Origin: an uncultured Peptococcaceae bacterium
GTDB lineage: Bacteria; Bacillota; Peptococcia; Peptococcales; Peptococcaceae
NCBI GenBank assembly: GCA_902496505.1
Contig: CABVBB010000008.1
Location: 1 to 15,118 of the forward strand
DNA: 15,118 nt
Direction: 5' to 3'
In this document: positions 2,540 through 14,516 of the stretch, one piece after another
Layout: every line of letters begins with the position of its first letter
Position numbering within the stretch: position 1 is the first letter of the stretch
The notes under the pieces: model-generated
Told to the model about the DNA's origin: nothing
The model's database searches: none
Seen by the model: the letters and a program-made list of their open reading frames with translations, nothing else
Program-made: the position numbers and the translations under genes

Positions 2540-2735
2540 GGAACAAGGGAGAAGCCTCAGGCGGTGCTCGTGCAAACCTTCAGCAAACAGATAAACCCCA
2601 GCAGCTCGCAGCACCCAGCCCATCGCATTGGCTGACGAAAGCAGTGCCAAGACAGGCCAAAGCTTCCTGGCGCCAAAGCCCCTTCGCCAAAACGACTTAA
2701 GCAGCGCAGCAGTGAAGCACGCTGAACAGGCCGCG
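2540..2735 (+). other. CRISPR leader or transcribed region of unknown nature
   Basis: About 195 bp between the promoter and the first repeat, with no credible reading frame. It is clearly G+C-rich, whereas CRISPR leaders are usually A+T-rich. Several short helices are possible: CAGCC with GGCTG inside a GCAC/GTGC pair (about 2607-2650), CAGG/CCTG and GGCG/CGCC further on, and 5' GCGG...CGTGC against 3' GCACG...CCGC across the whole segment. It may be a structured RNA merged with the array transcript, or simply an unusual leader. No known RNA family could be recognised. Confidence 0.4.
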
Positions 2736-3162
2736 GTCGCACCTGATACGGGTGCGTGGATTGAAAACCACAAAAAACGGCATCTATATTTATCAGTTGG
2801 CGTCGCACCTGATACGGGTGCGTGGATTGAAACGTGAGGAGGCGATCAAATGACGTTAGATTTACAGTCGCACCTGATACGGGTGCGTGGATTGAAATTG
2901 AAATAGGCTTGCATCATGGCAAAACAGGTGTAAGTCGCACCTCACGCAGGTGCGTGGATTGAAACCGCTTAAAATAGCCTTACTTGCTGATACAAAGCTG
3001 TCGCACCTCACGAAGGTGCGTGGATTGAAACCAGAATTGGTTATATCGACGAGCATGATGGTCAAGTCGCACCTCACGCAGGTGCGTGGATTGAAACTCA
3101 CACAGCAGATTGAAAAGCTGGGTGCAGGCCGTCGCACCTCCTACAGGTGCGGGGAGTGCAGC
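2736..3162 (+). CRISPR. Type I-C-like CRISPR array, 7 repeats / 6 spacers, no cas genes in view
   Basis: 32-bp repeats start at 2736, 2802, 2867, 2934, 3000, 3066 and 3131. Spacers are 34, 33, 35, 34, 34 and 33 bp, all different. The repeat has the type I-C form: GTCGCACC, a variable centre, then GTGCGTGGATTGAAA plus one base, with a small hairpin (GCACC/GGTGC) and an ATTGAAAC-type 3' handle. Repeats 1-3 share the centre TGATACG; repeats 4-6 carry TCACGCA or TCACGAA. The last repeat (3131-3162) is decayed in its 3' third, which marks the old end and puts the leader on the left, so crRNAs would come from the plus strand. No cas gene lies within the window on either side, so the array is orphan or depends on Cas proteins elsewhere. 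Confidence 0.95.
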
Positions 3163-4047: not shown

Positions 4048-4078
4048 TGAGCAAAAAGATGACAAAGGAGTGGCGGAT

Positions 4079-5305
4079 GTGGGTGAGTATAAGTTATTGA
4101 GCAGGATCTATCATGATGTCAAGCTGAGGGATACGTATACCACAGTCTATGAGCAAAGGTTTAATGGGGATAGTACCTACAAATTGCCGTTAGCGATCAA
4201 AGACACGTCCACTGCCGAAGATATGCAGCTATTTGTTGTTTTGACGCCGGAAATTTATGAGACCACGATACAGATCAGTCAATTAGAAGAACAGCTGCAA
4301 AACCTTATTGCAGAGCTGCCGCCAGCCGCCATTCAGGGTCATCTTATGAATTACATTTTGGTCGATGAATTGATGAAAACCAATGAGATTGAAGGCGTAC
4401 ACAGCACCAGAAAAGAAATCTCAGATGCTGTAGCCGCTAATAAAAAAAGAGAAAAAGAAGAAAAGCGGAAGCTGAGATTTATCAACCAAGTGAATCAGTA
4501 TATGAAGATTCTGGCTGAAAATGAATTTGTGATCGATACCCCGCAAAGTTTACGGACGCTTTATGATGAATTTTTAATGGGCGAATTGAAGGCTGATGAG
4601 CTGCCAGACGGTACGATTTTCCGCAAGGATCCCGTTACCGTCTATTCTCAGACGGAGAAGCCGCTGCATACAGGTTTGATGCCGGAACAGGCGATCATTA
4701 TGGCTGTCCAAAGCCTGATCAACTTTTACCAAGATGATACCTATCCCAGTTTTTTGAGGATCGCCATAGCACACTACTATTTGGGGTATATCCATCCCTT
4801 CTATGATGGCAATGGCCGTTTTGGTCGTCTGCTCAGCTCGATCTTACTCGCGCAGGAATTTGATACATTGATCGCGTTGAGGCTGTCGGTCACCATCCAT
4901 GAAAATCTCAAAGCGTATTACAGAGCCTTTGAGGCGGTCAATGATCGGCTGAACAAAGGCGATGCGACGCCTTTTTATACGATGTTTCTGCATGTTATAG
5001 AGCAGGCCGCCAGTGAGCTGTTGGTCGATTTGACGGAAAAAGAAGCGGCTCTCATATATGCAGAGGAAAATGTGAAAATGCTGAGCGACTTAGACGAGGA
5101 AGAAAAAGATACCTTGTATGTCATGCAACAAGCCAGTGTGTTCTCGAACAAAAATTTGAGCATCAACGCCCTTATGCAAAATCTCAAATTCTCGCGGAAC
5201 AAGATGCTTAGACTGCTTGATTCTCTCGAAAGAAAAGGTTATATCACCGTTGATCGACAGCACAAGCCATATAAATATATCCTAAGTGAGCAGTTTTTTG
5301 CCTGA
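4079..5305 (+). CDS. Fic-domain protein (AMPylase type, class II) with C-terminal winged helix
   Basis: 408 residues from the GTG at 4079, chosen because AAAGGAG (4064-4070) lies 8 bases upstream. The in-frame GTG at 4070 overlaps that site. Residues 239-250 are HPFYDGNGRFGR, the complete HPFxxGNGRxxR catalytic motif of Fic enzymes, which transfer AMP or another nucleotide to protein hydroxyls. Residues 101-106 (TNEIEG) fit the inhibitory (S/T)xxxE(G/N) motif placed N-terminal to the Fic core, defining class II self-inhibited Fic proteins. The C-terminus (about 350-405, LSINALMQNLKFSRNKMLRLLDSLERKGYITV) looks like a winged helix-turn-helix, so it may bind DNA and control itself. No antitoxin gene is adjacent, as expected when inhibition is intramolecular. 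Its target is unknown. Confidence 0.92.
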   Translation: MGEYKLLSRIYHDVKLRDTYTTVYEQRFNGDSTYKLPLAIKDTSTAEDMQLFVVLTPEIYETTIQISQLEEQLQNLIAELPPAAIQGHLMNYILVDELMKTNEIEGVHSTRKEISDAVAANKKREKEEKRKLRFINQVNQYMKILAENEFVIDTPQSLRTLYDEFLMGELKADELPDGTIFRKDPVTVYSQTEKPLHTGLMPEQAIIMAVQSLINFYQDDTYPSFLRIAIAHYYLGYIHPFYDGNGRFGRLLSSILLAQEFDTLIALRLSVTIHENLKAYYRAFEAVNDRLNKGDATPFYTMFLHVIEQAASELLVDLTEKEAALIYAEENVKMLSDLDEEEKDTLYVMQQASVFSNKNLSINALMQNLKFSRNKMLRLLDSLERKGYITVDRQHKPYKYILSEQFFA

Positions 5306-5645: not shown

Positions 5646-6800
5646 ATGGATTTGATGGAATATCAGGCACAGCAGCTGTTTATGGCGGCGGGGCTTCCGG
5701 TCAAAAAAGGCGTAGTCGCTGCTGACGCGGATGCTTTGGTCAAATTGGTTCATGAACAAGGCATGGCATATCCGCTGGTGCTGAAAGCACAGGTACAGGT
5801 CGGCGGCCGAGGCAAAGCCGGCGGTATCAAATTTGCAGAAAATGATGATGAATTGAAAGCTTGTGCCGAGGCGATCCTGGGCATGGATATTAAAGGACAT
5901 ATCGTTAAATTGGTCATGGCTGTGGAAAAAGCCAGCGTTGCACGGGAGATGTATCTCTCCATCATGCTGGATCGTCAGAGCAAAGGCCCGGTCATCATGT
6001 TCTGCCCACAGGGCGGCATGGAGATCGAAAATCTGACCAAAGAGCATCCTGAACTCATGGTCAAAACGTTCGTCGATCCCCGCATGGGCATCAGCGGCTA
6101 TACCGGTCAGTATCTGGCTACCAAAGCAGGCTTGGACAAAGAAGCCGGCAAACAGCTGCAAAAGCTTTTGCTCAATTTGTATAAATGCTTCATGGATAAT
6201 CACTGCACCTTGACGGAGATCAATCCCTTAGTGGTCGATACTGAGGGCAATATCTGCGCGCTGGACGGCAAGATCTCCATCGACGACAGTGCTGTCAGCA
6301 TCCACGAAAATCTGGCGGCCTTCAAGGTCGACATCCCCGGCGATCCCATCGTTGAGGAAGCTAAGAAAAATAATTTCTTCTGCGTGCCCTGCGAACCGGA
6401 CGGCACCATCGCGGTCATCTGCAATGGCTCCGGCATGCTGATGAACACCATCGACCGCGTCAGCGGCAAAGGCTTCAAAGTCTGCCTGGCACTGGATCTG
6501 GGCGGCGGCGCTACAGCAGCCCGCGTCAAAGAAGCCGTGCGCATCGTTTCCGAATATGACAAAGTCGGCGCTATGTTGATCAACGTCTTCGGCGGCATCA
6601 CCCGCTGCGACGAAGTGGCTACCGGCATCAAAGAAGCCATGGAAGAGAACAATATCACCACGGACATGATCCTGCGCCTCGAAGGCAGCAACAAAGAGGC
6701 TGGCGCAGCTATTGCGGCGACCATTCCTAAAGTCATCCATGCTGAGGATCTGAACGAAGGTTTGGATTTATTAGTTGAGAGAATGGGGGCACAGGCATGA
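5646..6800 (+). CDS. sucC: Succinyl-CoA ligase (ADP-forming) beta subunit
   Basis: 384 residues, close to the 388 of E. coli SucC. MDLMEYQAQQLF aligns with the E. coli start and GGAGGTG lies 9 bases upstream, fixing the ATG at 5646 rather than 5655. The N-terminal ATP-grasp domain shows LKAQVQVGGRGKAGG (nucleotide binding), TEINPLVV and LDGKISIDD (metal ligands). The C-terminal ligase domain shows VICNGSGM, LDLGGGAT and NVFGGITRCDEVA. With SucD it interconverts succinyl-CoA and succinate with nucleotide phosphorylation, in the TCA cycle or, in anaerobes, in succinate/propionate metabolism. The stop overlaps the sucD start by 4 bp, so the two are translationally coupled. Specificity for succinate is by family; see sucD for divergent residues. 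Confidence 0.93.
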   Translation: MDLMEYQAQQLFMAAGLPVKKGVVAADADALVKLVHEQGMAYPLVLKAQVQVGGRGKAGGIKFAENDDELKACAEAILGMDIKGHIVKLVMAVEKASVAREMYLSIMLDRQSKGPVIMFCPQGGMEIENLTKEHPELMVKTFVDPRMGISGYTGQYLATKAGLDKEAGKQLQKLLLNLYKCFMDNHCTLTEINPLVVDTEGNICALDGKISIDDSAVSIHENLAAFKVDIPGDPIVEEAKKNNFFCVPCEPDGTIAVICNGSGMLMNTIDRVSGKGFKVCLALDLGGGATAARVKEAVRIVSEYDKVGAMLINVFGGITRCDEVATGIKEAMEENNITTDMILRLEGSNKEAGAAIAATIPKVIHAEDLNEGLDLLVERMGAQA

Positions 6801-7678
6801 GTATCATTATCGATCAGAATACAAAATTACTGGTACAGGGCATCACAGGCCGTGAGGGCTCCTACCATACCAAACAAATGCTGGATGCCGGCACCAATAT
6901 CGTTGCTGGCGTGACACCAGGCAAAGGCGGCCAGATGGTCGAAGGCGTACCTGTCTTCAACACCGTGCGCGAGGCTGTAGAAGCCACCGGCGCTAATGCC
7001 ACCATTTCCTTTGCACCAGCCAAATTTGCCATCGATGGCATCTACGAAGCCATTGACGCAGGACTCAAAACGATCGTCGTTTTGGCAGAGTATGTACCGG
7101 TACACGACATGATGATCGCTTATCATGTGGCCAGAGAAAAAGGCGTGACCATCATCGGGCCTAACACCTTCGGCATCATTTCCCCAGGCAAATGCAAAGC
7201 CGGCATCATGGATCACCACATCTTCGCCCCTGGCAATGTGGCGCTCATTTCCCGCAGCGGCACCAACAGCTACGAGACCGCTTTCATGATGAAAAACAAC
7301 GGCATCGGCATCAGCACCTGCATCGGTGTTGGCGGCGATATGATCCCAGGCACCGCTTTTGTCGATTTGCTTCCTGCTCTCGAAGCTGATCCCGAGACCA
7401 AAGTCATTGCCATGATCGGTGAGATCGGCGGTAATGAGGAAGAATTGGCCGCAGCTTATATCAAAGAGCACGTGACCAAGCCTGTCGTAGCTTTCATCGC
7501 TGGCAAAAACGCTCCAAAAGGCAAAGGCATGGGCCATGCCGGTGCGATCGTGGGCGCAGACGGCACAGGCAGTGCTGAACACAAAGAAGCTGCTCTCTCC
7601 GCAGCAGGCGCTGCTATCGCCAACAACATGAGCGAATTGGTCGAGCTGGTCAAAAAAGCAGTAGAGCAAGCAAAATAA
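6797..7678 (+). CDS. sucD: Succinyl-CoA ligase (ADP-forming) alpha subunit
   Basis: 293 residues, the usual length. The CoA-binding Rossmann domain has [16 protein letters not shown] and GVTPGKGG. The ligase domain has MIGEIGG and MGHAGAIV with His247, the residue phosphorylated in the reaction (His246 in E. coli). Two active-site segments differ from the usual form: GPNTFG (122-126 region) replaces GPNCPG, so the conserved Cys (Cys123 in E. coli, near CoA and the phosphohistidine) is Thr124; and SRSGTNSYE replaces [19 protein letters not shown] also replaces the common TEGIPxxDM. The enzyme should be active but may differ in kinetics or acid substrate. It starts inside the sucC stop (ATGA) and is followed by a terminator. 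Confidence 0.92.
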
Positions 7679-7828: not shown

Positions 7829-8560
7829 GTGCGCATTGCGATTTGTGATGATGAAAAACAAGAACGACAATTGATCATAGACTGGCTGCAGCAAGAAAAC
7901 ATTTCCAAGTTTGACATCGACGAATACGGTTCAGCAGATGATCTGCTGCGCGCGATCCAAGGCGGGCGCAACTTCAATCTGATCTATCTGGATATCGAAA
8001 TGCCAGGCGATCACAATGGTTTGGAAGCGGCCCGCATTTTGGCACAGGAGCATGATCCCGCCATGCTGGTCTTTATCACCAGCTATAGAGAATTTATCAA
8101 CCAAGGCTACAAAGTATCAGCGATGGATTTTTTGACCAAGCCGCTCAATGAAGAAGAGTTTCGTGAAACGTTTCAGCGCTGCCGCCAAAAATACGATGCC
8201 CAGCATTATCTGCTCTTTGAAAAACGGGACGATGTCCTGCAGATCATGGCCAGCGACATCTTGGTGGTGACAGCGCGGAGAAATTATGTAGAGATCACTT
8301 ATCGCGGCGGTAAAGAGCCTTTTGAATACCGTTCCACCATGGCTGAAATGGAGCGATTATTGTCTGACAAAGGCTTTTTTCGCTGTCACAACAGCTATAT
8401 CATCAACCTGGCCTATCTCAAACGCGTCTATCGGGATAAGGAAAAGCAATGCTGGGCGATGGTCTCTGACGGCGAGCAGGACTACAAGCTGTCCGTCAGC
8501 CAAAACAAATGGACAGCCATCAGACGCGCTCTGCACGAATTTCGAAGGGGGCGGATGTGA
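7829..8560 (+). CDS. LytTR-family response regulator 1 (AgrA-like)
   Basis: 243 residues from the GTG at 7829. AAAGGAG sits 8 bases upstream, and the start RIAICDDEKQERQL aligns with the start of the paralogue at 10982; the upstream ATG at 7805 lacks both. The receiver domain (1-120) has Asp7/Asp8, phospho-acceptor Asp55 in LIYLDIEMPG, Thr84 and Lys104 in DFLTKPL. The LytTR DNA-binding domain covers about 130-240 (ILVVTARRNYVEI ... FFRCHNSYIINLAYLKRVY). LytTR regulators bind paired direct repeats upstream of suboptimal promoters. The stop codon shares one base with the kinase start, so the pair is translationally coupled. It should receive phosphate from kinase 1 and probably acts on the agr-type promoters in this locus. 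Confidence 0.92.
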   Translation: MRIAICDDEKQERQLIIDWLQQENISKFDIDEYGSADDLLRAIQGGRNFNLIYLDIEMPGDHNGLEAARILAQEHDPAMLVFITSYREFINQGYKVSAMDFLTKPLNEEEFRETFQRCRQKYDAQHYLLFEKRDDVLQIMASDILVVTARRNYVEITYRGGKEPFEYRSTMAEMERLLSDKGFFRCHNSYIINLAYLKRVYRDKEKQCWAMVSDGEQDYKLSVSQNKWTAIRRALHEFRRGRM

Positions 8561-9870
8561 TGGATTATGATAGCGTGATCATAGTAGCCTTATATACTTT
8601 TGGGGCTCTCATGGAAATGATAACGCTGTGGTATCTATGCAAGATCGTCTTGGGAGAAAGTAAAAGAAGCCCGAGAGAAACGTTGGTGGTCTTTGGAATA
8701 ACCGGAGTGTTGGCATTAGTATTGTCAATGATGGACGTAACATCGAATCAGCGTATGCTGGGCTTCTATATTATTTTGCTCATCCCTACCATGATGTTTG
8801 AAGGGCATATATTGTTGAAGCTGTTTGTATGTGTGGCCTTTTTTGCAATCGGTGGAGGGTCAGAGACACTTACCAAAGCCTTTATTCTTGCTATGAATAG
8901 TGATGTAGGGACAGTTGTTGTACTGAATTCTTGGGGGAAATTTGCGCAGGGACTGATCATATCTAAATTTTTAGCATTTGCTGTCGTAAGGATATTAGCT
9001 TCTTTGCAAAGAGTTAAACATCACCAACTGTCAACATTATCAGTCATGGCCTTTTCCATTTTGCCAATAGCAACAGCTATGGCGATCAACCAATTGATGA
9101 AAATAAGCTATGTCATAGATAGTCAGCAAAGCTACGCAATGACCTTTATGATCGTGGCTTTATTAGTCATCTCCAATATCGTATTGTTTCATATTTTAGA
9201 AACGCAGGCAGAAAATGAGCAGACCAAGCTGCGTCTGGCCTTACTGCAAAATCAACAAAATGAGCAGGAGAAGTTTTACAGCCAGCTGGCAGAAGAAAAA
9301 ACGAAAACCAACCGCTTAGCCCATGATCTGAATAAATATCTGCTGGCGATCTCAGGATATTTGCAGGAAGACCGCCATGAAGACATTGAAAAATGTTTGA
9401 CGGACCTGAATATCAACTTGCAGAAGGCAGTGTGCCACTATACCAGTGATATGGCCATCGATACGGTCATCACCGAAAAGGCGCAGTCAGCTAAAGCGCA
9501 GGATACATTTTTGCGGGTGACCAGCTTTGTGCAGGCGCCGCTCATGGCTAATGGCATCGACATGGCCTTGTTATTGGCCAATGCCTTGGATAATGCGTTG
9601 GAAGCGACAGCAGACCAGCCGGCAGCGGTGATCGATCTAAAACTCAGCATTGATGAAGATTATATCGATCTCATTATCAAAAATCCCCTGACGCACGCGG
9701 TAAAGATCGTTGACAACACCATCGCTACGACCAAAGCCGACAAAGCTATGCATGGTCTGGGGCTGATCTCCATTCAGGAGATCGTGGAGCGTTATGATGG
9801 CGATCTGGTGCTCAGAAATGAGGCAGGGCACTTCATTTTTGATGCGATGCTGATGAACAGGGAGAAGTAA
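8560..9870 (+). CDS. AgrC-like membrane histidine kinase 1 (HPK10 / GHKL type)
   Basis: 436 residues from the ATG at 8560, overlapping the regulator stop by one base. Residues 1-213 are six or seven hydrophobic membrane segments, the AgrC-type peptide sensor. A coiled-coil-like linker (about 214-250) leads to the phospho-acceptor His255 in RLAHDLNKYLLAISGYLQ. The ATPase region has the N-box LLANALDNALEAT (Asn341, Asn345) and the glycine box HGLGLISIQEIVERYDG (398-414). This set is characteristic of AgrC/ComD kinases that detect cyclic or short peptides. The sensor half is visibly A+T-richer (about 37-48% G+C per line) than most of the kinase half and than the paralogue at 11761, which suggests separate evolution or exchange of the sensor. 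A terminator begins at the stop codon. Confidence 0.92.
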   Translation: MDYDSVIIVALYTFGALMEMITLWYLCKIVLGESKRSPRETLVVFGITGVLALVLSMMDVTSNQRMLGFYIILLIPTMMFEGHILLKLFVCVAFFAIGGGSETLTKAFILAMNSDVGTVVVLNSWGKFAQGLIISKFLAFAVVRILASLQRVKHHQLSTLSVMAFSILPIATAMAINQLMKISYVIDSQQSYAMTFMIVALLVISNIVLFHILETQAENEQTKLRLALLQNQQNEQEKFYSQLAEEKTKTNRLAHDLNKYLLAISGYLQEDRHEDIEKCLTDLNINLQKAVCHYTSDMAIDTVITEKAQSAKAQDTFLRVTSFVQAPLMANGIDMALLLANALDNALEATADQPAAVIDLKLSIDEDYIDLIIKNPLTHAVKIVDNTIATTKADKAMHGLGLISIQEIVERYDGDLVLRNEAGHFIFDAMLMNREK

Positions 9871-9897
9871 AAAGCAGAGGCAGCGGCCTCTGCTTTT
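9870..9897 (+). terminator. Terminator after kinase 1
   Basis: AAAAGCAGAGGC (9870-9881) pairs perfectly with GCCTCTGCTTTT (9886-9897) around a 4-nt loop. It separates the first RR-HK operon from the agrBD operon. Confidence 0.9.
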
Positions 9898-9923
9898 GGG
9901 TATGAGTGGAAATATCTGGTCCG

Positions 9924-9954
9924 TCCCTGAAACAGGGGATTTTATCCCGCTTTT
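9924..9954 (+). promoter_or_regulatory. Putative LytTR binding site: direct repeats upstream of the agrBD promoter
   Basis: TCCCTGAAA (9924-9932) and TCCCGCTTT (9945-9953) start 21 bp apart, the two-turn spacing used by AgrA/LytTR regulators. The second repeat touches the -35 element. A similar pair lies at 13072/13092 before the candidate RNA. The motif does not match the S. aureus AgrA site letter for letter, so the regulator is inferred from spacing and position. Confidence 0.6.
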
Positions 9955-9984
9955 GACAGAAAAAGGGGAGATTTGTGGTATAGT
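9953..9984 (+). promoter_or_regulatory. agrBD promoter with 20-bp spacer
   Basis: TTGACA (9953-9958, a perfect -35) and TATAGT (9979-9984) are separated by 20 bp, three more than optimal. Over-long spacers are a known feature of AgrA-dependent agr promoters, which need activator to fire. The start of transcription would be near 9991, about 18 bases before agrB. Confidence 0.75.
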
Positions 9985-10008
9985 GCATAGGCGAAGGGAG
10001 GCAGCGCC

Positions 10009-10632
10009 ATGATCGTAGAGCAGGCTCAGAAACTCACAGATCATTTGTGCAGACAGCAGATCATCAAGGAGGAAGAGAAGAGCATTTATTATTTTTGCTT
10101 TGAGGTGATGATCTCCACCGTATATTTTTGGCTGATCGCGCTGGCTTTGGCTGTGCTCAGCGGACAGATCGTGGAGAGCGCACTTTATCTGGCTGCGTTT
10201 ACCCTAATGCGCTCAGCGGCCGGAGGCTATCATGCCGCTAGTCACTGGCGGTGTCTGACCATGTCAGCGGTCAGTATGGTGATATTTTTTGCAGTCGAAT
10301 TGATGGTGCCGGAGTCTTGGCTGGTCATCGTGATGCCGGTACTTGGTCTTTATACGGTTTATCTGATCGGGCGATTCGCGCCAATCGATCACCCCAATAA
10401 TCCCTTTACCGCCGAAGAGCGGCAGCGCAACCGACGGAAAAGTTTGCTGTATTTGGGGCTGATGAGTGTATGTTTAGTGCTGCTTTGGGCTGTGGGGAAA
10501 ACACATCTGGCCTTCTGCTTGCTTCTGGGGCTGGCCCAGGCTGCGGCAGCGTTAAATATAGCAATTCTAAAGCATCAGGGAGGTGAAAACGATGAAGAAT
10601 GTCTTGACGAAAGCACAGGTCTTATTGGCTGA
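10009..10632 (+). CDS. agrB: AgrB-type accessory gene regulator peptidase/transporter
   Basis: 207 residues, typical for AgrB, with about five or six hydrophobic membrane segments from residue 25 on. RSAAGGYHAASHWRC (68-82) contains the catalytic His75 and Cys82 seven residues apart, as in AgrB cysteine peptidases. These cut the C-terminal tail off AgrD and form the thiolactone ring. GGGAGG lies 7 bases before the ATG. The 3' end overlaps the agrD gene by 41 bp in another frame, so both are made from one transcript. Its flanks are two kinase/regulator pairs rather than the S. aureus order B-D-C-A. Confidence 0.93.
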   Translation: MIVEQAQKLTDHLCRQQIIKEEEKSIYYFCFEVMISTVYFWLIALALAVLSGQIVESALYLAAFTLMRSAAGGYHAASHWRCLTMSAVSMVIFFAVELMVPESWLVIVMPVLGLYTVYLIGRFAPIDHPNNPFTAEERQRNRRKSLLYLGLMSVCLVLLWAVGKTHLAFCLLLGLAQAAAALNIAILKHQGGENDEECLDESTGLIG

Positions 10633-10723
10633 CTTGGCTTTGGCAGCTGGTGTAAAAGTTGCTAAGGGCAAATGTATGACTGAGTATTATCAGCCTAAGG
10701 TTCCTCAAGAACTGAAAAAGTAA
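10592..10723 (+). CDS. agrD: AgrD-type autoinducing peptide precursor
   Basis: A 43-residue gene. The product has an amphipathic N-terminal leader (MKNVLTKAQVLLADLALAAG), then KGKCMTEY, then a charged tail YQPKVPQELKK. The tail aligns with the recognition tail of S. aureus AgrD (xxPxVPxEL), which fixes the processing site after Tyr32. The mature signal would therefore carry a five-residue thiolactone ring Cys28-Met-Thr-Glu-Tyr32 plus a short N-terminal extension of unknown length. A strong AGGGAGGTG ribosome site lies 7 bases upstream of the ATG, inside agrB. The cysteine, the ring size, the PxVPxEL tail and the overlap with agrB make this a confident call; the exact N-terminus of the secreted peptide cannot be read from the sequence. 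Confidence 0.93.
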   Translation: MKNVLTKAQVLLADLALAAGVKVAKGKCMTEYYQPKVPQELKK

Positions 10724-10751
10724 GATTGGCAGGATCTATTGTCAGCAGTGT

Positions 10752-10839
10752 ACTTCTGGTGTTTTGTTCGAGCAAGCCATTTGCTAAAGTCGCCGGGAAA
10801 GCGCAGCATCAGAAGTCAATTCAGCATGAGCGTGCTGAA
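10752..10839 (+). ncRNA. Structured 3' region of the agrBD transcript
   Basis: Between agrD and its terminator lie 137 bp without a credible gene but with nested helices. A 10-bp closing stem (10752-10761 with 10807-10816, one G-U) encloses a 5-bp hairpin AGCAA/TTGCT (10771-10785) and a short CGC/GCG pair. A 7-bp hairpin TTCAGCA/TGCTGAA follows at 10820-10839. It could be a stabilising 3' UTR or a processed small RNA. No family is recognised. Confidence 0.4.
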
Positions 10840-10860
10840 AAAGTACATATGGAAGGAAAC

Positions 10861-10892
10861 GCCGTCGCAGTGGGGATCTGCGGCGGCTTTTT
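10861..10892 (+). terminator. Terminator of the agrBD operon
   Basis: GCCGTCGCAG (10861-10870) pairs with CTGCGGCGGC (10878-10887), ten pairs with one G-U, followed by five T's. Confidence 0.9.
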
Positions 10893-10911
10893 GGTTTGTG
10901 AGGAGAAGCTC

Positions 10912-10941
10912 TTGAAAACAGGCCAGTCTGTAGTGTAAGAT
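10912..10941 (+). promoter_or_regulatory. Candidate promoter of the second RR-HK operon
   Basis: TTGAAA (10912-10917), an 18-bp spacer and TAAGAT (10936-10941) lie about 40 bp before the regulator start. No TCCC direct repeats are present. Confidence 0.5.
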
Positions 10942-10981
10942 GAGAGGAAGAAGGTGAGATGAGCAGCAAGGGGGAGGCAAA

Positions 10982-11764
10982 ATGAACATTGCGATCTGTG
11001 ATGATGAAAAGCACGAACGTCAGCTTTTGGAGGGCTGGCTGCGAGAAGATGAGACGCTGCAGGCTGTGATCAGCGCCTATGCTTCGACGGCATCGCTGAT
11101 CAAGGATGTGGAGCGCGGTCTGCGCTATGATCTGATCTTTTTGGATATAGAGCTGCCTGGTGATATCGATGGTCTGGAAGCCGCTTATCAGATCCGTCAG
11201 CTGGATGCGAATGTGATGCAGGTGTTCATTACAGGACATTGGGATCTGATGGTGAGTGCATTCAAAGTAGAGGCTATGGATTTTTTGGTCAAGCCGGTGG
11301 ATAAGGCGCGTTTTTTGGCTACGGTGGATCGTTGCCGGGACAAGTTCTGCGCGATCAATCAGGTGGTCTTCGCTAATGTGGAGGAGGCGGCGCTGCTGAC
11401 GGTGCGGGATATTTATTATATTTCAACAATGTCAGGCAAGGACAAAAATTATGTGCTGATCCATGATCGGTTATCAGAGCATTCCGCCTTACTGGAGGAG
11501 GAAAAGGGCATCAAGATCCGCATGACGATGAATGAGGTGGAGCAGCTTTTGGCGGGCAAGGGATTTTACCGCTGCCAGAGCGGCTATTTAGTGAACTGGG
11601 CATATGTGAAGCGCATCTATACAGAAAAGAGCGATAAGCTCATCCAGAATAAGGTCCTGTTGGTAGACGGCGATTGGCGTCAGACCCTGCCGGTCAGCCG
11701 CGACAAAAAGCAGGAGATGCTGAGACTTTTCCATAGCCGCAGACGGGGAGGCGAGAGACTATGA
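10982..11764 (+). CDS. LytTR-family response regulator 2 (AgrA-like)
   Basis: 260 residues. The receiver domain has Asp7/Asp8, phospho-acceptor Asp55 in LIFLDIELPG, Thr84 and Lys104 in DFLVKPV, at the same numbers as in regulator 1, so the two are clear paralogues. The LytTR domain occupies about 130-250 (LTVRDIYYISTMSGKDKNYVLI ... FYRCQSGYLVNWAYVKRIY). It has an insertion of roughly ten or more residues near SGKDKNYVLIHDRLSEHSALLEEEKG that regulator 1 lacks, which may alter DNA contacts. GGGGGAGG sits 4 bases before the ATG. The stop overlaps the start of kinase 2 (ATGA). Confidence 0.92.
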   Translation: MNIAICDDEKHERQLLEGWLREDETLQAVISAYASTASLIKDVERGLRYDLIFLDIELPGDIDGLEAAYQIRQLDANVMQVFITGHWDLMVSAFKVEAMDFLVKPVDKARFLATVDRCRDKFCAINQVVFANVEEAALLTVRDIYYISTMSGKDKNYVLIHDRLSEHSALLEEEKGIKIRMTMNEVEQLLAGKGFYRCQSGYLVNWAYVKRIYTEKSDKLIQNKVLLVDGDWRQTLPVSRDKKQEMLRLFHSRRRGGERL

Positions 11765-13062
11765 TGGTGATCGCTATCAATATTTTTTGCAGCGTGATGG
11801 AGATGGCGACGCTGTGGTATCTGGGCTCCTTTATCATGGGCAAAAGCAAATACCGCTGGCCAGTCAATGTGCTGGTGTTGTTGCTAGCGGTGGCTGCGTC
11901 AGTGTGCGCTGCGGTCTTCATGCCCAAGGGACCGGTGAGGATATTAGTCAATGCAGCCATTTTTTTGGTGCCGCTTTTGCTTTTTGAAAGTTCGCTCTTG
12001 ATGAAGCTTTTTACCTTGGGGCTTTTTGTTACCATATCCGGATGCACGGAGCAGGCAGTCAAGGCGTTGCAGGTCCTCATTAACGGCGGGCTGGAGGCAG
12101 TGGATGGGGATTTCGGCAAGTATGTGCAGGGCGCGGTCTTGTCTAAATTCTTGGCGCTGGCATTGGTGCGCCTCTTGATGAGTTTCAAAAAAGCCAAGGG
12201 GCAGACATTATCCGGCTTGGCGATGCTGGAAATGGTGATATATCCGCTGACGACGATGCTGGTCATGAGTCAAATCTTGCGGCCGGGGTATTTTGCAGAG
12301 GATACGTCCACCTATGTGGGCGCGTTTTTGGTAGCCTGCGCGTTGATCGTGACCAATTTTTTGCTGTTCCATATTTTTGAGCGGCAGGCAGAGCAGGAAA
12401 ACAACAAGATCAAGCTGGCGCTGATGCAGAAGCAGCAGGAGGAGCAGAAGCGTTTTTATCTGGAATTGGCCGCAGAAAAAAAGAAGACCAACCAAATGGC
12501 TCACGACATCAAAAATTATCTCTTAGCCGTGTCCGGCTTCATCCAAGAGGGTCGCATGGAGGACGCGCTGGCTTATTTGCAGCAGCTGCAGGTGCTCAGT
12601 GAGACCAATTATTGTCACATCACCGGCCATCTGCCCATTGATGCCGTCTTGGCAGAGAAGGAGCATCAAGCAGAGCTGCAGGGGACCACGCTGCGGATCG
12701 AGACCACCATCGATCATCCGCTGCAGGCCGATGAAGTGGATGTGGCGCTTTTGCTGGCCAATGCTTTGGATAATGCGCTGGAAGCGACGATAGACCTGCC
12801 GGAGGCGGTCATCACGCTCATCTACCGGGTGGACGAATATTATATCGATCTTATCTTGACCAATACCGTAGCACATGAGGTGATCGTAGAAAACAATTCG
12901 ATCGCGACTAATAAGGCAGACAAAGAACACCATGGCATAGGACTGGCCTCCATCAAAGAGATCGTAGAGCGCTACGACGGCTCTATCGAACTTTCCAGTG
13001 ATGGGCAGATGTTCACCTTGGATGTTCTGCTCGGCAATGTGTCCGCAGACAGTGCAATGTGA
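11761..13062 (+). CDS. AgrC-like membrane histidine kinase 2 (HPK10 / GHKL type)
   Basis: 433 residues; ATG at 11761 or 11764 are both possible. Residues 1-205 form six or seven membrane segments. The phospho-acceptor is His248 in QMAHDIKNYLLAVSGF, the N-box is LLANALDNALEAT (Asn334, Asn338) and the glycine box is HGIGLASIKEIVERYDG (391-407). The catalytic half is close to kinase 1 while the sensor halves share only scattered blocks (VMEMATLWYL / LMEMITLWYL, the FE...LLMKLF / FEGHILLKLF stretch, SKFLAxAxVR). This is what is expected if the two receptors respond to different or differently recognised peptides. Overlap with regulator 2 indicates translational coupling. Confidence 0.92.
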   Translation: MMVIAINIFCSVMEMATLWYLGSFIMGKSKYRWPVNVLVLLLAVAASVCAAVFMPKGPVRILVNAAIFLVPLLLFESSLLMKLFTLGLFVTISGCTEQAVKALQVLINGGLEAVDGDFGKYVQGAVLSKFLALALVRLLMSFKKAKGQTLSGLAMLEMVIYPLTTMLVMSQILRPGYFAEDTSTYVGAFLVACALIVTNFLLFHIFERQAEQENNKIKLALMQKQQEEQKRFYLELAAEKKKTNQMAHDIKNYLLAVSGFIQEGRMEDALAYLQQLQVLSETNYCHITGHLPIDAVLAEKEHQAELQGTTLRIETTIDHPLQADEVDVALLLANALDNALEATIDLPEAVITLIYRVDEYYIDLILTNTVAHEVIVENNSIATNKADKEHHGIGLASIKEIVERYDGSIELSSDGQMFTLDVLLGNVSADSAM

Positions 13063-13067
13063 TGCAG

Positions 13068-13130
13068 ATTTTCCCTATAAACGACCAATTTTCCCTAAAA
13101 CAAAGTGGTCAGCCCGCTATCTGCTATGAT
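13068..13130 (+). promoter_or_regulatory. Putative LytTR-controlled promoter after kinase 2
   Basis: ATTTTCCCTA occurs at 13068-13077 and again at 13088-13097, exactly 20 bp apart, each followed by A-rich sequence. TATGAT (13125-13130) is the -10 candidate, 33 bp from the second TCCC, against 34 bp in the agrBD promoter. No good -35 exists, as expected for an activator-dependent promoter. Transcription would start near 13137. Confidence 0.6.
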
Positions 13131-13136
13131 AGAAAA

Positions 13137-13340
13137 AACCAGTACAAGAACACACTTTGCTGGTCATGAGGGGCTGGTAAAGCTGTCATTAGGGGAGATG
13201 GCTTTGCTGGGAACGCACCTTTGTGTTCCAAAGGGGAAAATGCAGCCACCCAAGAAGTCACTGCTGACACGATGTTTTCATTGCTGGGAAATGAGTGGGA
13301 AACAGGGAAAAGCTGCCGCCTGATCAGGCGGCAGCTTTTT
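13137..13340 (+). ncRNA. Candidate regulatory RNA (RNAIII-like position)
   Basis: About 200 bases lie between a putative LytTR-dependent promoter and a strong terminator, with no convincing gene. An internal hairpin can form near 13202-13234: CTTT, GGAA and CAC pair with GTG, TTCC and AAAG across small bulges. The only sizeable open frame on this strand (GTG at 13105) starts upstream of the predicted transcription start, has no ribosome site and ends inside the terminator stem. In S. aureus the AgrA-regulated effector is the RNA RNAIII; this transcript occupies a comparable place but shares no recognised sequence with it. Confidence 0.45.
13311..13340 (+). terminator. Strong terminator between kinase 2 region and lipoprotein
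   Basis: AGCTGCCGCCTGA (13311-13323) is followed without a loop break by its perfect complement TCAGGCGGCAGCT (13324-13336), with AAAA before and TTTTT at the exit. It can act in both directions. Confidence 0.9.
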
Positions 13341-13367
13341 CGATTGATCGAGAAAGTGGGGATAAAG

Positions 13368-14516
13368 ATGAAGAAAACGATCGTGAAACTGATCAGTTTA
13401 TTGTTGAGCCTGCTGCTTTTGGCGGGCTGTATAGGACAAAAGCAGCCAGTGGAAAGGGTCAAAGTTTTGGAAAATCAGGGGGAAATAAATGCAGCCATTG
13501 CGTTTACCCCGTTTTATTATACGATTTTTGAGAAGCGGCAGCCCGGCTGCTTATACGATCAGGGACAAGAAATAGCTACGCCGGATTCGTCGCTGCTCGG
13601 GATGGATAACGCGCTCCCTGCGGAGGGGATAGAACCCCTGCTGGCATATTTTCAGGCAGAAGATATCGATGAGCTGACGGCTCAGCTGGGGCAATATATG
13701 TATTATCAGGCATACGCCGAAGGAAGGATGTTTGTCTTCTGTGACCATGCTAAGAAGATCGTGCATCTCATCGCAGAACAGAGCGGGCATATCCAGCATA
13801 TGATCTGTGAAACGGAGATTTCGGCTATACCAGACTTTGTGGGCAGAGATGAAGACCATTTTTATGTCATCCTGCAGGAAAACACGGAGTATGGCAGAGG
13901 CTTGATCGAAAAGCCGCAGGTTATTATATATGCCTACGATTTCAGTCAAGCGACATTGGAGAGTATGTCGTTTCAGATCGAGGATGTGGCTTACGATGGC
14001 TGGATCAAGGACTGGTTTGTCGAGAAGGGGAAGCAGTATTTTCTGATAGATGAGTATATAACGGATGATACAGCAGAGTACTATGGAATAGAGGCGCGTG
14101 AGCTGCCAGATCGTGTTGTGGCAGTCGATATGGCGGAAGGATCAGTGACACAATTTCCGCTGTCTACAGTGAACACAGATTTCATCTTTTGGGAAGAGGG
14201 CGCCTTGCATTGGGGGGAGATGCAAACCGTAGCAGGGCATAGTGAACTGATCCTCCATTCTGAACGGTCGGCAAAACGGATCATTTTGGCAGAGGGGCCG
14301 ATATACGCGTGGTTTCGGCCTTTTTATCATCAGGGGCAGCTTTATTTGGATGTCGAGGGCGCTGGACTGGAGCCGTATAAAAAAGGTGTGCTGGTCGTCG
14401 ATACGCAGGCAGGCAAAGTGCTTCAGCTGATCGCCTTTGATGATCCAGAGGCTGATGTCATTTTTGTCCGCTATCTGATGAAGCTGCCAGACGGTCAGTA
14501 TGTGGATCTGCGCTAA
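13368..14516 (+). CDS. Predicted lipoprotein of unknown function
   Basis: 382 residues from the ATG at 13368, chosen because the product begins with a lipoprotein signal peptide: MKKTIVK, a hydrophobic stretch, then the lipobox LLAGC with Cys21. The longer open frame to 13221 would bury this signal and passes through the terminator. The ribosome site is weak (GGGG, 6-7 bases upstream). The mature protein is acidic, rich in aromatic residues and beta-strand-like repeats (for example DRVVAVDMAEGSVTQFPLS, GVLVVDTQAGKVLQLIAF), which suggests a beta-propeller-like fold but no recognised domain. It should be anchored to the outer face of the cytoplasmic membrane. Its place directly after the agr-like locus makes it a possible target or co-inherited gene; that link is inferred. 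Confidence 0.8.
   Translation: MKKTIVKLISLLLSLLLLAGCIGQKQPVERVKVLENQGEINAAIAFTPFYYTIFEKRQPGCLYDQGQEIATPDSSLLGMDNALPAEGIEPLLAYFQAEDIDELTAQLGQYMYYQAYAEGRMFVFCDHAKKIVHLIAEQSGHIQHMICETEISAIPDFVGRDEDHFYVILQENTEYGRGLIEKPQVIIYAYDFSQATLESMSFQIEDVAYDGWIKDWFVEKGKQYFLIDEYITDDTAEYYGIEARELPDRVVAVDMAEGSVTQFPLSTVNTDFIFWEEGALHWGEMQTVAGHSELILHSERSAKRIILAEGPIYAWFRPFYHQGQLYLDVEGAGLEPYKKGVLVVDTQAGKVLQLIAFDDPEADVIFVRYLMKLPDGQYVDLR

Follow-up and report, generated by a model that had tools for sequence, protein, structure and literature searches.

The stretch of DNA considered here, called the window, comprises 15,118 nucleotides (positions 1 to 15,118 of contig CABVBB010000008.1) from an uncultured gut-type bacterium placed near the Peptococcaceae. 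Between positions 7829 and 13062 it carries an agr-type locus, in which one pair of signal genes, agrB and agrD, is flanked by two complete pairs of response regulator (RR) and histidine kinase (HK) genes. The six genes, with reading frames all open, lie on one strand (+), at the positions already given by a first-pass annotation made from the sequence alone: RR1 (7829-8560) and HK1 (8560-9870), agrB (10009-10632) and agrD (10592-10723), RR2 (10982-11764) and HK2 (11761-13062). RR1 starts with a GTG codon preceded by the ribosome-site-like AAAGGAG, and in both pairs the regulator gene overlaps the gene of its kinase. The three units are set apart by hairpin terminators, as had been noted: the one 3' of agrD (10861-10887, +) was listed by the automatic scan, while the one 3' of HK1 (9873-9897, +) was read by eye and is absent from the scan list.

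By its proteins, the locus is a true agr-type quorum-sensing system. The AgrB peptidase matches PF04647 with 132 bits (cut-off 23) and the AgrD pro-peptide matches TIGR04223 with 31.2 bits (cut-off 19); judging by the pro-peptide sequence, the ring, including its size, is probably C-M-T-E-Y, followed by YQPKVPQELKK. Both regulators are AgrA-like, with Pfam matches to a receiver (Response_reg, PF00072) and a LytTR domain (PF04397), and a count on the sequences places Asp55 and Lys104 at identical numbers in the two, as first observed. Against the AgrA equivalog they score 49 and 41 bits (cut-off 400); BtsR ranks first for them and is also far under its cut-off. Each kinase has an AgrC-type GHKL core (HATPase_c_5) behind a membrane sensor, in which AlphaFold models seven helices, at the upper end of the six to seven segments first estimated, the last one extending into the dimerisation helix. 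The mean predicted local distance difference test scores of these models are 81.4 (HK1) and 80.4 (HK2), and the predicted template modelling scores 0.53 and 0.51. The conserved histidine, H255 in HK1 and H248 in HK2, is invariant in the 27-row alignments. In the PDB, the top sequence match of the kinase profile was the kinase module of Staphylococcus aureus AgrC (E 6e-21), which was also first by Foldseek E-value, with a low whole-length template modelling score of 0.27. The staphylococcal AgrC equivalog was not reached, HK2 scoring 19.5 bits (cut-off 500) and HK1 not being among the matches listed.

In the textbook agr circuit one signal is matched by one receptor; the present locus departs from this standard in having two complete kinase-regulator pairs per agrBD. 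The only relative of AgrB in the search of genome contigs was L001, from a Peptococcaceae metagenome-assembled genome of sheep rectum (37% identical). Another genome of the same family, G002, was compared together with the genomes of its class (46 in all), and it is the nearest genome compared because its counterpart of the window gene at 6797-7678, which we take to be a succinyl-CoA ligase of the alpha type, is 90% identical (at most 53% for the other matches listed among these class genomes). Despite this nearness G002 is distant in its agr proteins, its peptide being 44% identical to AgrD across 39 columns and its kinase 38% identical to HK1 and 32% to HK2. In both L001 and G002 the order is RR-HK-agrB-agrD with no second pair alongside, so that the order B-D-C-A, cited at first as the normal one, is not that of the present lineage, and the second pair is either a trait of the lineage of the window or was lost in G002. 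G002 also encodes, at another place (L045, 5398-7434), an additional LytTR-like regulator; the AgrC-like kinase that comes after it is broken up into two reading frames.

The gene order was also surveyed at 124 agrB loci, namely 98 better-scoring listed matches, 15 further listed matches, 10 loci of the family and the window. The matches were drawn from a search of 398 genomes, at least 165 of them with a match, and the sample they form is incomplete and not random. With the regulator profile no more than 44 ORFs (open reading frames) were recovered, which makes the regulator counts lower bounds. Two complete pairs around one agrB (R K [B] R K) were found in the window only (1/124), and the conservation of this order elsewhere, which the first-pass annotation had proposed to look for, was not seen among these loci. 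An RR-HK pair before agrB without a further labelled gene inside 4 kb was present at nine loci, of which the family contributes eight. Kinase-like genes on both sides of agrB occurred elsewhere once each as K [B] K R, b s [B] R s and k' [B] k' r', where b stands for a kinase-profile match shorter than 250 aa (labels were assigned by length), and several loci have such a short match and a kinase on opposite sides of agrB, for instance b [B] K (six loci). At two loci, L168 and L170, the contig ends next to agrB. Short kinase-profile matches lie near many of the agrB loci (e.g., L069 4593-5105 and L088 4600-5112); by eye, 10 of 12 resembled a membrane-only sensor half and two a kinase half. A flanking double-receptor agr locus was not found in the literature searched (the best-ranked, open-licence papers); the two-pair arrangement was therefore met neither in the 123 other loci nor in that literature.

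Over their full length HK1 and HK2 share 43% identity, with 33% in the sensors and 51% in the kinase parts. In a tree of 28 kinases, comprising seven rows of each group (the fragment P0008 was left out), the HK1 and HK2 clades are each supported at 100/100 and are sisters at 88/82, under the starred support level, with the G002 kinase outside; HK1, HK2 and G002 kinases are held together at 99/98. The two are thus each other's nearest paralogues among the tree rows, and an unrelated two-component system lying beside agrBD by chance was rejected on this ground. Six full or near-full-length relatives of HK2 were found (P0001-P0006; P0006 has an internal gap and P0005 is short at the start), besides the fragment P0008 of the same type, so that a loss or decay of the second pair in every close relative, which the first-pass annotation had named as fatal to a duplicated-receptor design, is not what the kinase shows at the protein level. 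Each clade holds six distinct sequence types, apart from near-identical rows, which correspond to four to six true lineages because three pairs have near-equal kinases. As far as the protein sequences tell, both kinases persist across several sequence lineages, and the catalytic His, Asn and Gly columns are retained in both clades. Relatives of HK1 and AgrB match in longest contig in two cases, P0041/P0068 (3574) and P0042/P0069 (2784), which fits a linkage of HK1 and agrB. No relatives of HK2 or of the AgrB alignment were found in viral contigs, and a phage setting was dropped for this reason. The earlier interpretation is hence supported in part: a duplication of the receptors finds support in HK1 and HK2 being paralogous and both intact.

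The regulators, for their part, are 44% identical in their receivers and 34% in their LytTR domains. An alignment shows that they have in common an N-terminal stretch, DEKxERQLxxxWL, unlike the regulators of G002 and G001; the helix holding it usually faces the kinase. An insertion and a changed motif (RCHNS/RCQSG) distinguish the two LytTR domains. Since the kinase-facing stretch is shared and the DNA-binding domains differ, the outputs of the two are probably partly separate.

A difference between the two receptors emerged from the G+C content at third codon positions (GC3), expressed as z scores against the codon usage of the other window genes. The sensor half of HK1 (residues 1-215; 8560-9204, +) has an alien third-position composition, with a GC3 of 44% against 69% expected (z -8.7), while the kinase half is normal (z -0.1; residues 216-260 z -1.0 and residues 261-436 z 0.4). 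For HK2 the values are z 0.0 in the sensor and 1.7 in the kinase, for RR1 and RR2 -1.3 and -0.2, for AgrB -1.5 in residues 1-100 and -2.6 in residues 101-194, and for AgrD -2.6. In addition, of the 14 positions at which HK1 departs from its nearest relative, P0007, 13 fall in residues 108-127 (8881-8940, +), around the loop, predicted to be extracellular, that joins helices 4 and 5 and that AlphaFold models at residues 113-124. In S. aureus AgrC, peptide specificity is set by the second extracellular loop, according to an excerpt of PMC5007282. Among 42 within-clade pairs (21 HK1, 21 HK2), two HK1 pairs diverge far more in the sensor than in the kinase, P0042/P0044 by 39.7% against 0.5% and P0041/P0043 by 34.4% against 4.5%. 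With these features HK1 looks like the exchangeable self-receptor of agr specificity groups, and the pattern points to a partner co-diversifying with AgrD; HK2, with neither the composition break nor the loop pattern, looks like a resident second receptor.

Candidate regulatory sites were found downstream of HK2, where a perfect 10-base direct repeat, ATTTTCCCTA, with a period of 20 bases (13068-13097, +; copies starting at 13068 and 13088) is proposed as an operator for a LytTR regulator in the style of AgrA/VirR. No other exact 10-base direct repeat with a period between 19 and 24 was found by the repeat scan in the 15,118 bases, and letter shuffles of 13063-13130 gave an exact repeat in 1 of 20,000. 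A -10-like TATGAT (13125-13130, +), without a consensus -35, follows 27 bases 3' of the repeat and would precede a short transcript, either a leader or a small RNA (13137-13343, +), which may encode a peptide of 41 aa (13198-13323) and would end at a strong 16-pair hairpin with a T run (13308-13340, +), recognised by eye and by folding and not in the scan list. A second direct repeat, TCATGAGGGG / TCATTAGGGG, with a period of 22, lies inside the proposed transcript at 13164-13195. The start of a lipoprotein-like gene, so named by eye, is at 13368, 27 bases past the terminator, so that the transcript, rather than being a free small RNA, might serve read-through control of this gene. This gene had no Pfam or NCBIfam match and no match in the 46 class genomes (queries began at 13365, one codon upstream of the ATG); such an empty answer shows little, and the gene was dropped as a conserved target on that answer, slight as its weight is.

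Before agrB, a weak, eye-aligned candidate operator consists of two degenerate half-sites, CCGTCCCTGA / TTATCCCGCT, with a 21-base period (9921-9951, +), 27 bases 5' of a -10-like TATAGT (9979-9984). G002 has a 9-of-10 repeat with a 20-base period, ATTGTCCTCA/ATTATCCTCA, before agrB, at 28 bases from a TACAAT, as counted by eye; a scan of G002 for its own operator (up to three mismatches) returned the agrB site only, and a reversed control pattern also gave one match. An exact repeat of period 22 is present between HK and agrB in L185, a genome outside the family list. Repeats near agr loci are each weak when taken alone because exact repeats also occur in AT-rich spacers elsewhere. Direct repeats of period 21-22 near agr loci, possible operators for LytTR regulators, lie at L167 1280 and 4569 and at L185 3196 (TAACTAACCC type; TAGTTTTACC). 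The LytTR domain of RR2 is 41% identical to that of the G002 regulator and that of RR1 32%, and RR2, being the nearer, is guessed to keep the old operator.

Among known systems, the agr locus of S. aureus (agrBDCA, RNAII/RNAIII, with specificity groups) shares with the window AgrB, AgrD, an AgrC-type kinase and a LytTR regulator, as well as a receptor varying in the sensor half and in a key extracellular loop (PMC5007282, in part). The window differs from it in having two complete pairs, in the order RR-HK-B-D-RR-HK, as separate units. A regulated short transcript adjoins the S. aureus locus, and the one proposed here would lie downstream on the same strand instead of being divergent. The agr2 locus of Clostridioides difficile (agrACDB) also places regulator and kinase first and, in the available extract of PMC3754575, has one of each, whereas the window has two. 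In the same species, RgaR is described, in the portion of PMC10602386 at hand, as a LytTR regulator that activates agrB1D1 as well as spoZ, a small RNA gene, and recognises direct repeats with a spacing of 21 bases, in which the bases at -51 and -72 are key; the scheme proposed for the window would resemble it in direct repeats for a LytTR regulator and in the driving of agrBD and a small RNA. RgaS and RgaR are there described as orphans acting as a pair, while the window pairs flank agrBD. The nearest functional precedent that was found is Lactiplantibacillus plantarum, in which one agr-type cyclic peptide is said to be read by both LamCA and LamKR, working together (PMC12405376, excerpt); two two-component systems would likewise serve one peptide here. 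According to the same excerpt lamKR is treated as a region other than lamBDCA, in contrast to the window pairs, which flank one agrBD, and one of the window sensors shows signs of specificity-cassette exchange.

Taken together, the data suggest a receptor-regulator pair duplicated around one signal gene pair, so that one peptide would be read by two receptors with partly separate outputs, a reading that we hold to be about evenly poised. AgrB would cut and export AgrD as a cyclic thiolactone peptide, with CMTEY as the probable ring. HK1, immediately 5' of agrBD like the kinases of L001, G002 and the other RR-HK-agrB loci, would be the exchangeable self-type receptor, of which recombination between strains would replace the sensor half and, more weakly, AgrD and the back half of AgrB, the kinase half of HK1 staying in place. 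HK2, paralogous and with a sensor of resident composition, would most likely respond to this peptide as well, or to some shared portion of it, with less type specificity. The operator at 13068-13097 would be the target of one of the two regulators, of RR2 more probably than of RR1, and through it the short terminated transcript would be switched on, working much as RNAIII does in S. aureus or SpoZ in C. difficile; the weaker like site before agrB would serve autoinduction. We infer here the assignment of regulator to operator, the promoter and the function of the transcript. That HK2 reads the same AgrD peptide as HK1 is somewhat probable, and separation, at least partial, of the RR1 and RR2 outputs is slightly more so.

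HK2-RR2 might instead be an eavesdropping or orphan receptor for another cyclic peptide, made by a neighbour or encoded elsewhere, with the local AgrD read by HK1 alone. The sensors have indeed diverged more than the kinases, and the odd composition is common to the HK1 sensor and AgrD and absent from HK2, so that only HK1 seems to move with AgrD. HK2, however, adjoins the local agrBD and is a paralogue of its receptor, and the sensors are on average about as similar to one another in the HK2 clade (64.7% identity) as in the HK1 clade (67.1%). Nor was another AgrD-like ORF of at least 40 aa seen by eye in the window; in particular, a further AgrD, whether between agrD and RR2 or 3' of HK2, was rejected, the ORFs there lacking the AgrD-like C-terminal PxxPxEL (by eye; TIGR04223 was not run on them). 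We regard a foreign ligand for HK2 as rather unlikely. Still less probable is a single cross-talking circuit, in which both kinases would phosphorylate both regulators and HK2 would tune gain or threshold without separate outputs. The stretch common to RR1 and RR2 and the closer likeness of their receivers than of their LytTR domains would suit it, but the overlap of each regulator gene with its own kinase gene does not, and the insertion and the RCHNS/RCQSG difference favour different DNA targets. As to a tandem duplication without a function of its own, its second pair redundant and bound to be lost, the single pair beside agrBD in G002 would agree with it; the identity of HK1 and HK2 is far from that of a recent event, and the persistence of both clades with their catalytic columns kept had already disfavoured this explanation, which is very improbable.

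Several points weigh against one peptide being read by two receptors with separate outputs. The ligand of HK2 is one that we infer, and a second agrBD elsewhere in the genome is possible, the view being limited to the window. The persistence of HK2 rests on protein clusters without genome context, RR2-HK2 beside agrBD being unseen in relatives, and no HK2 cluster matches an AgrB cluster in longest contig. In approximately unbiased (AU) tests the G002 kinase could be placed with HK1 (p 0.21) or with HK2 (p 0.15), neither being rejected; as these tests do not decide, the dating of the duplication was dropped. The values of z -2.6 for AgrD and AgrB are weak because about two dozen composition tests were made, and deviations are also found in a Fic gene (z -4.4) and in the lipoprotein-like gene (z -3.2), which means that deviation alone is not special and that the break inside HK1, near the sensor border, is. 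HK2 is not strictly constant, since the sensors of P0003/P0006 differ by 20.7% with near-equal kinases (2.9%), and metagenome assembly, which may join conserved kinases to wrong sensors, could create some of these pairs. On the regulatory side, a sigma-70 scan gave no site at 13040-13500 or at the agrB promoter, the automatic repeat scan gave nothing before agrB or RR1 in the window, and among the agrB upstream regions of six family loci a repeat of at least 9/10 was found in G002 only. The folding z score was -4.3 for 13137-13345, with the terminator, and -1.0 for 13137-13300, without it, which is not unusually structured. No Rfam family reached its gathering score in the window (the weak best match, Thr_leader, had 20.8 bits against 55, E 0.098), and a structured regulatory RNA at 13137-13345 was dropped on these two grounds.

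Elsewhere in the window, the Fic-domain protein of deviating composition (4070-5305; z -4.4) was possibly acquired, and a small array resembling clustered regularly interspaced short palindromic repeats (CRISPR) is found at 2734-3162, with seven 34-nt repeats spaced 65-67 bases from start to start, the last one degenerate.

With two paralogous receptor systems around one signal pair, the question of how specificity groups arise while the circuit remains unbroken becomes testable. A second receptor that is not exchanged could sustain signalling during a type switch of the first, or it could separate kin and census outputs. In its fullest form, which is doubtful, the arrangement would be a two-tier agr code, in which an exchangeable self receptor, HK1, its sensor swapped with AgrD and the back half of AgrB, is combined with a resident census receptor, HK2, that does not follow these exchanges; RR1 and RR2 would carry the split to separate promoters, including one that precedes a short RNAIII-like transcript immediately 3' of HK2. 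If this were true, the cell would tell "my type" from "my kind" by means of a single signal.

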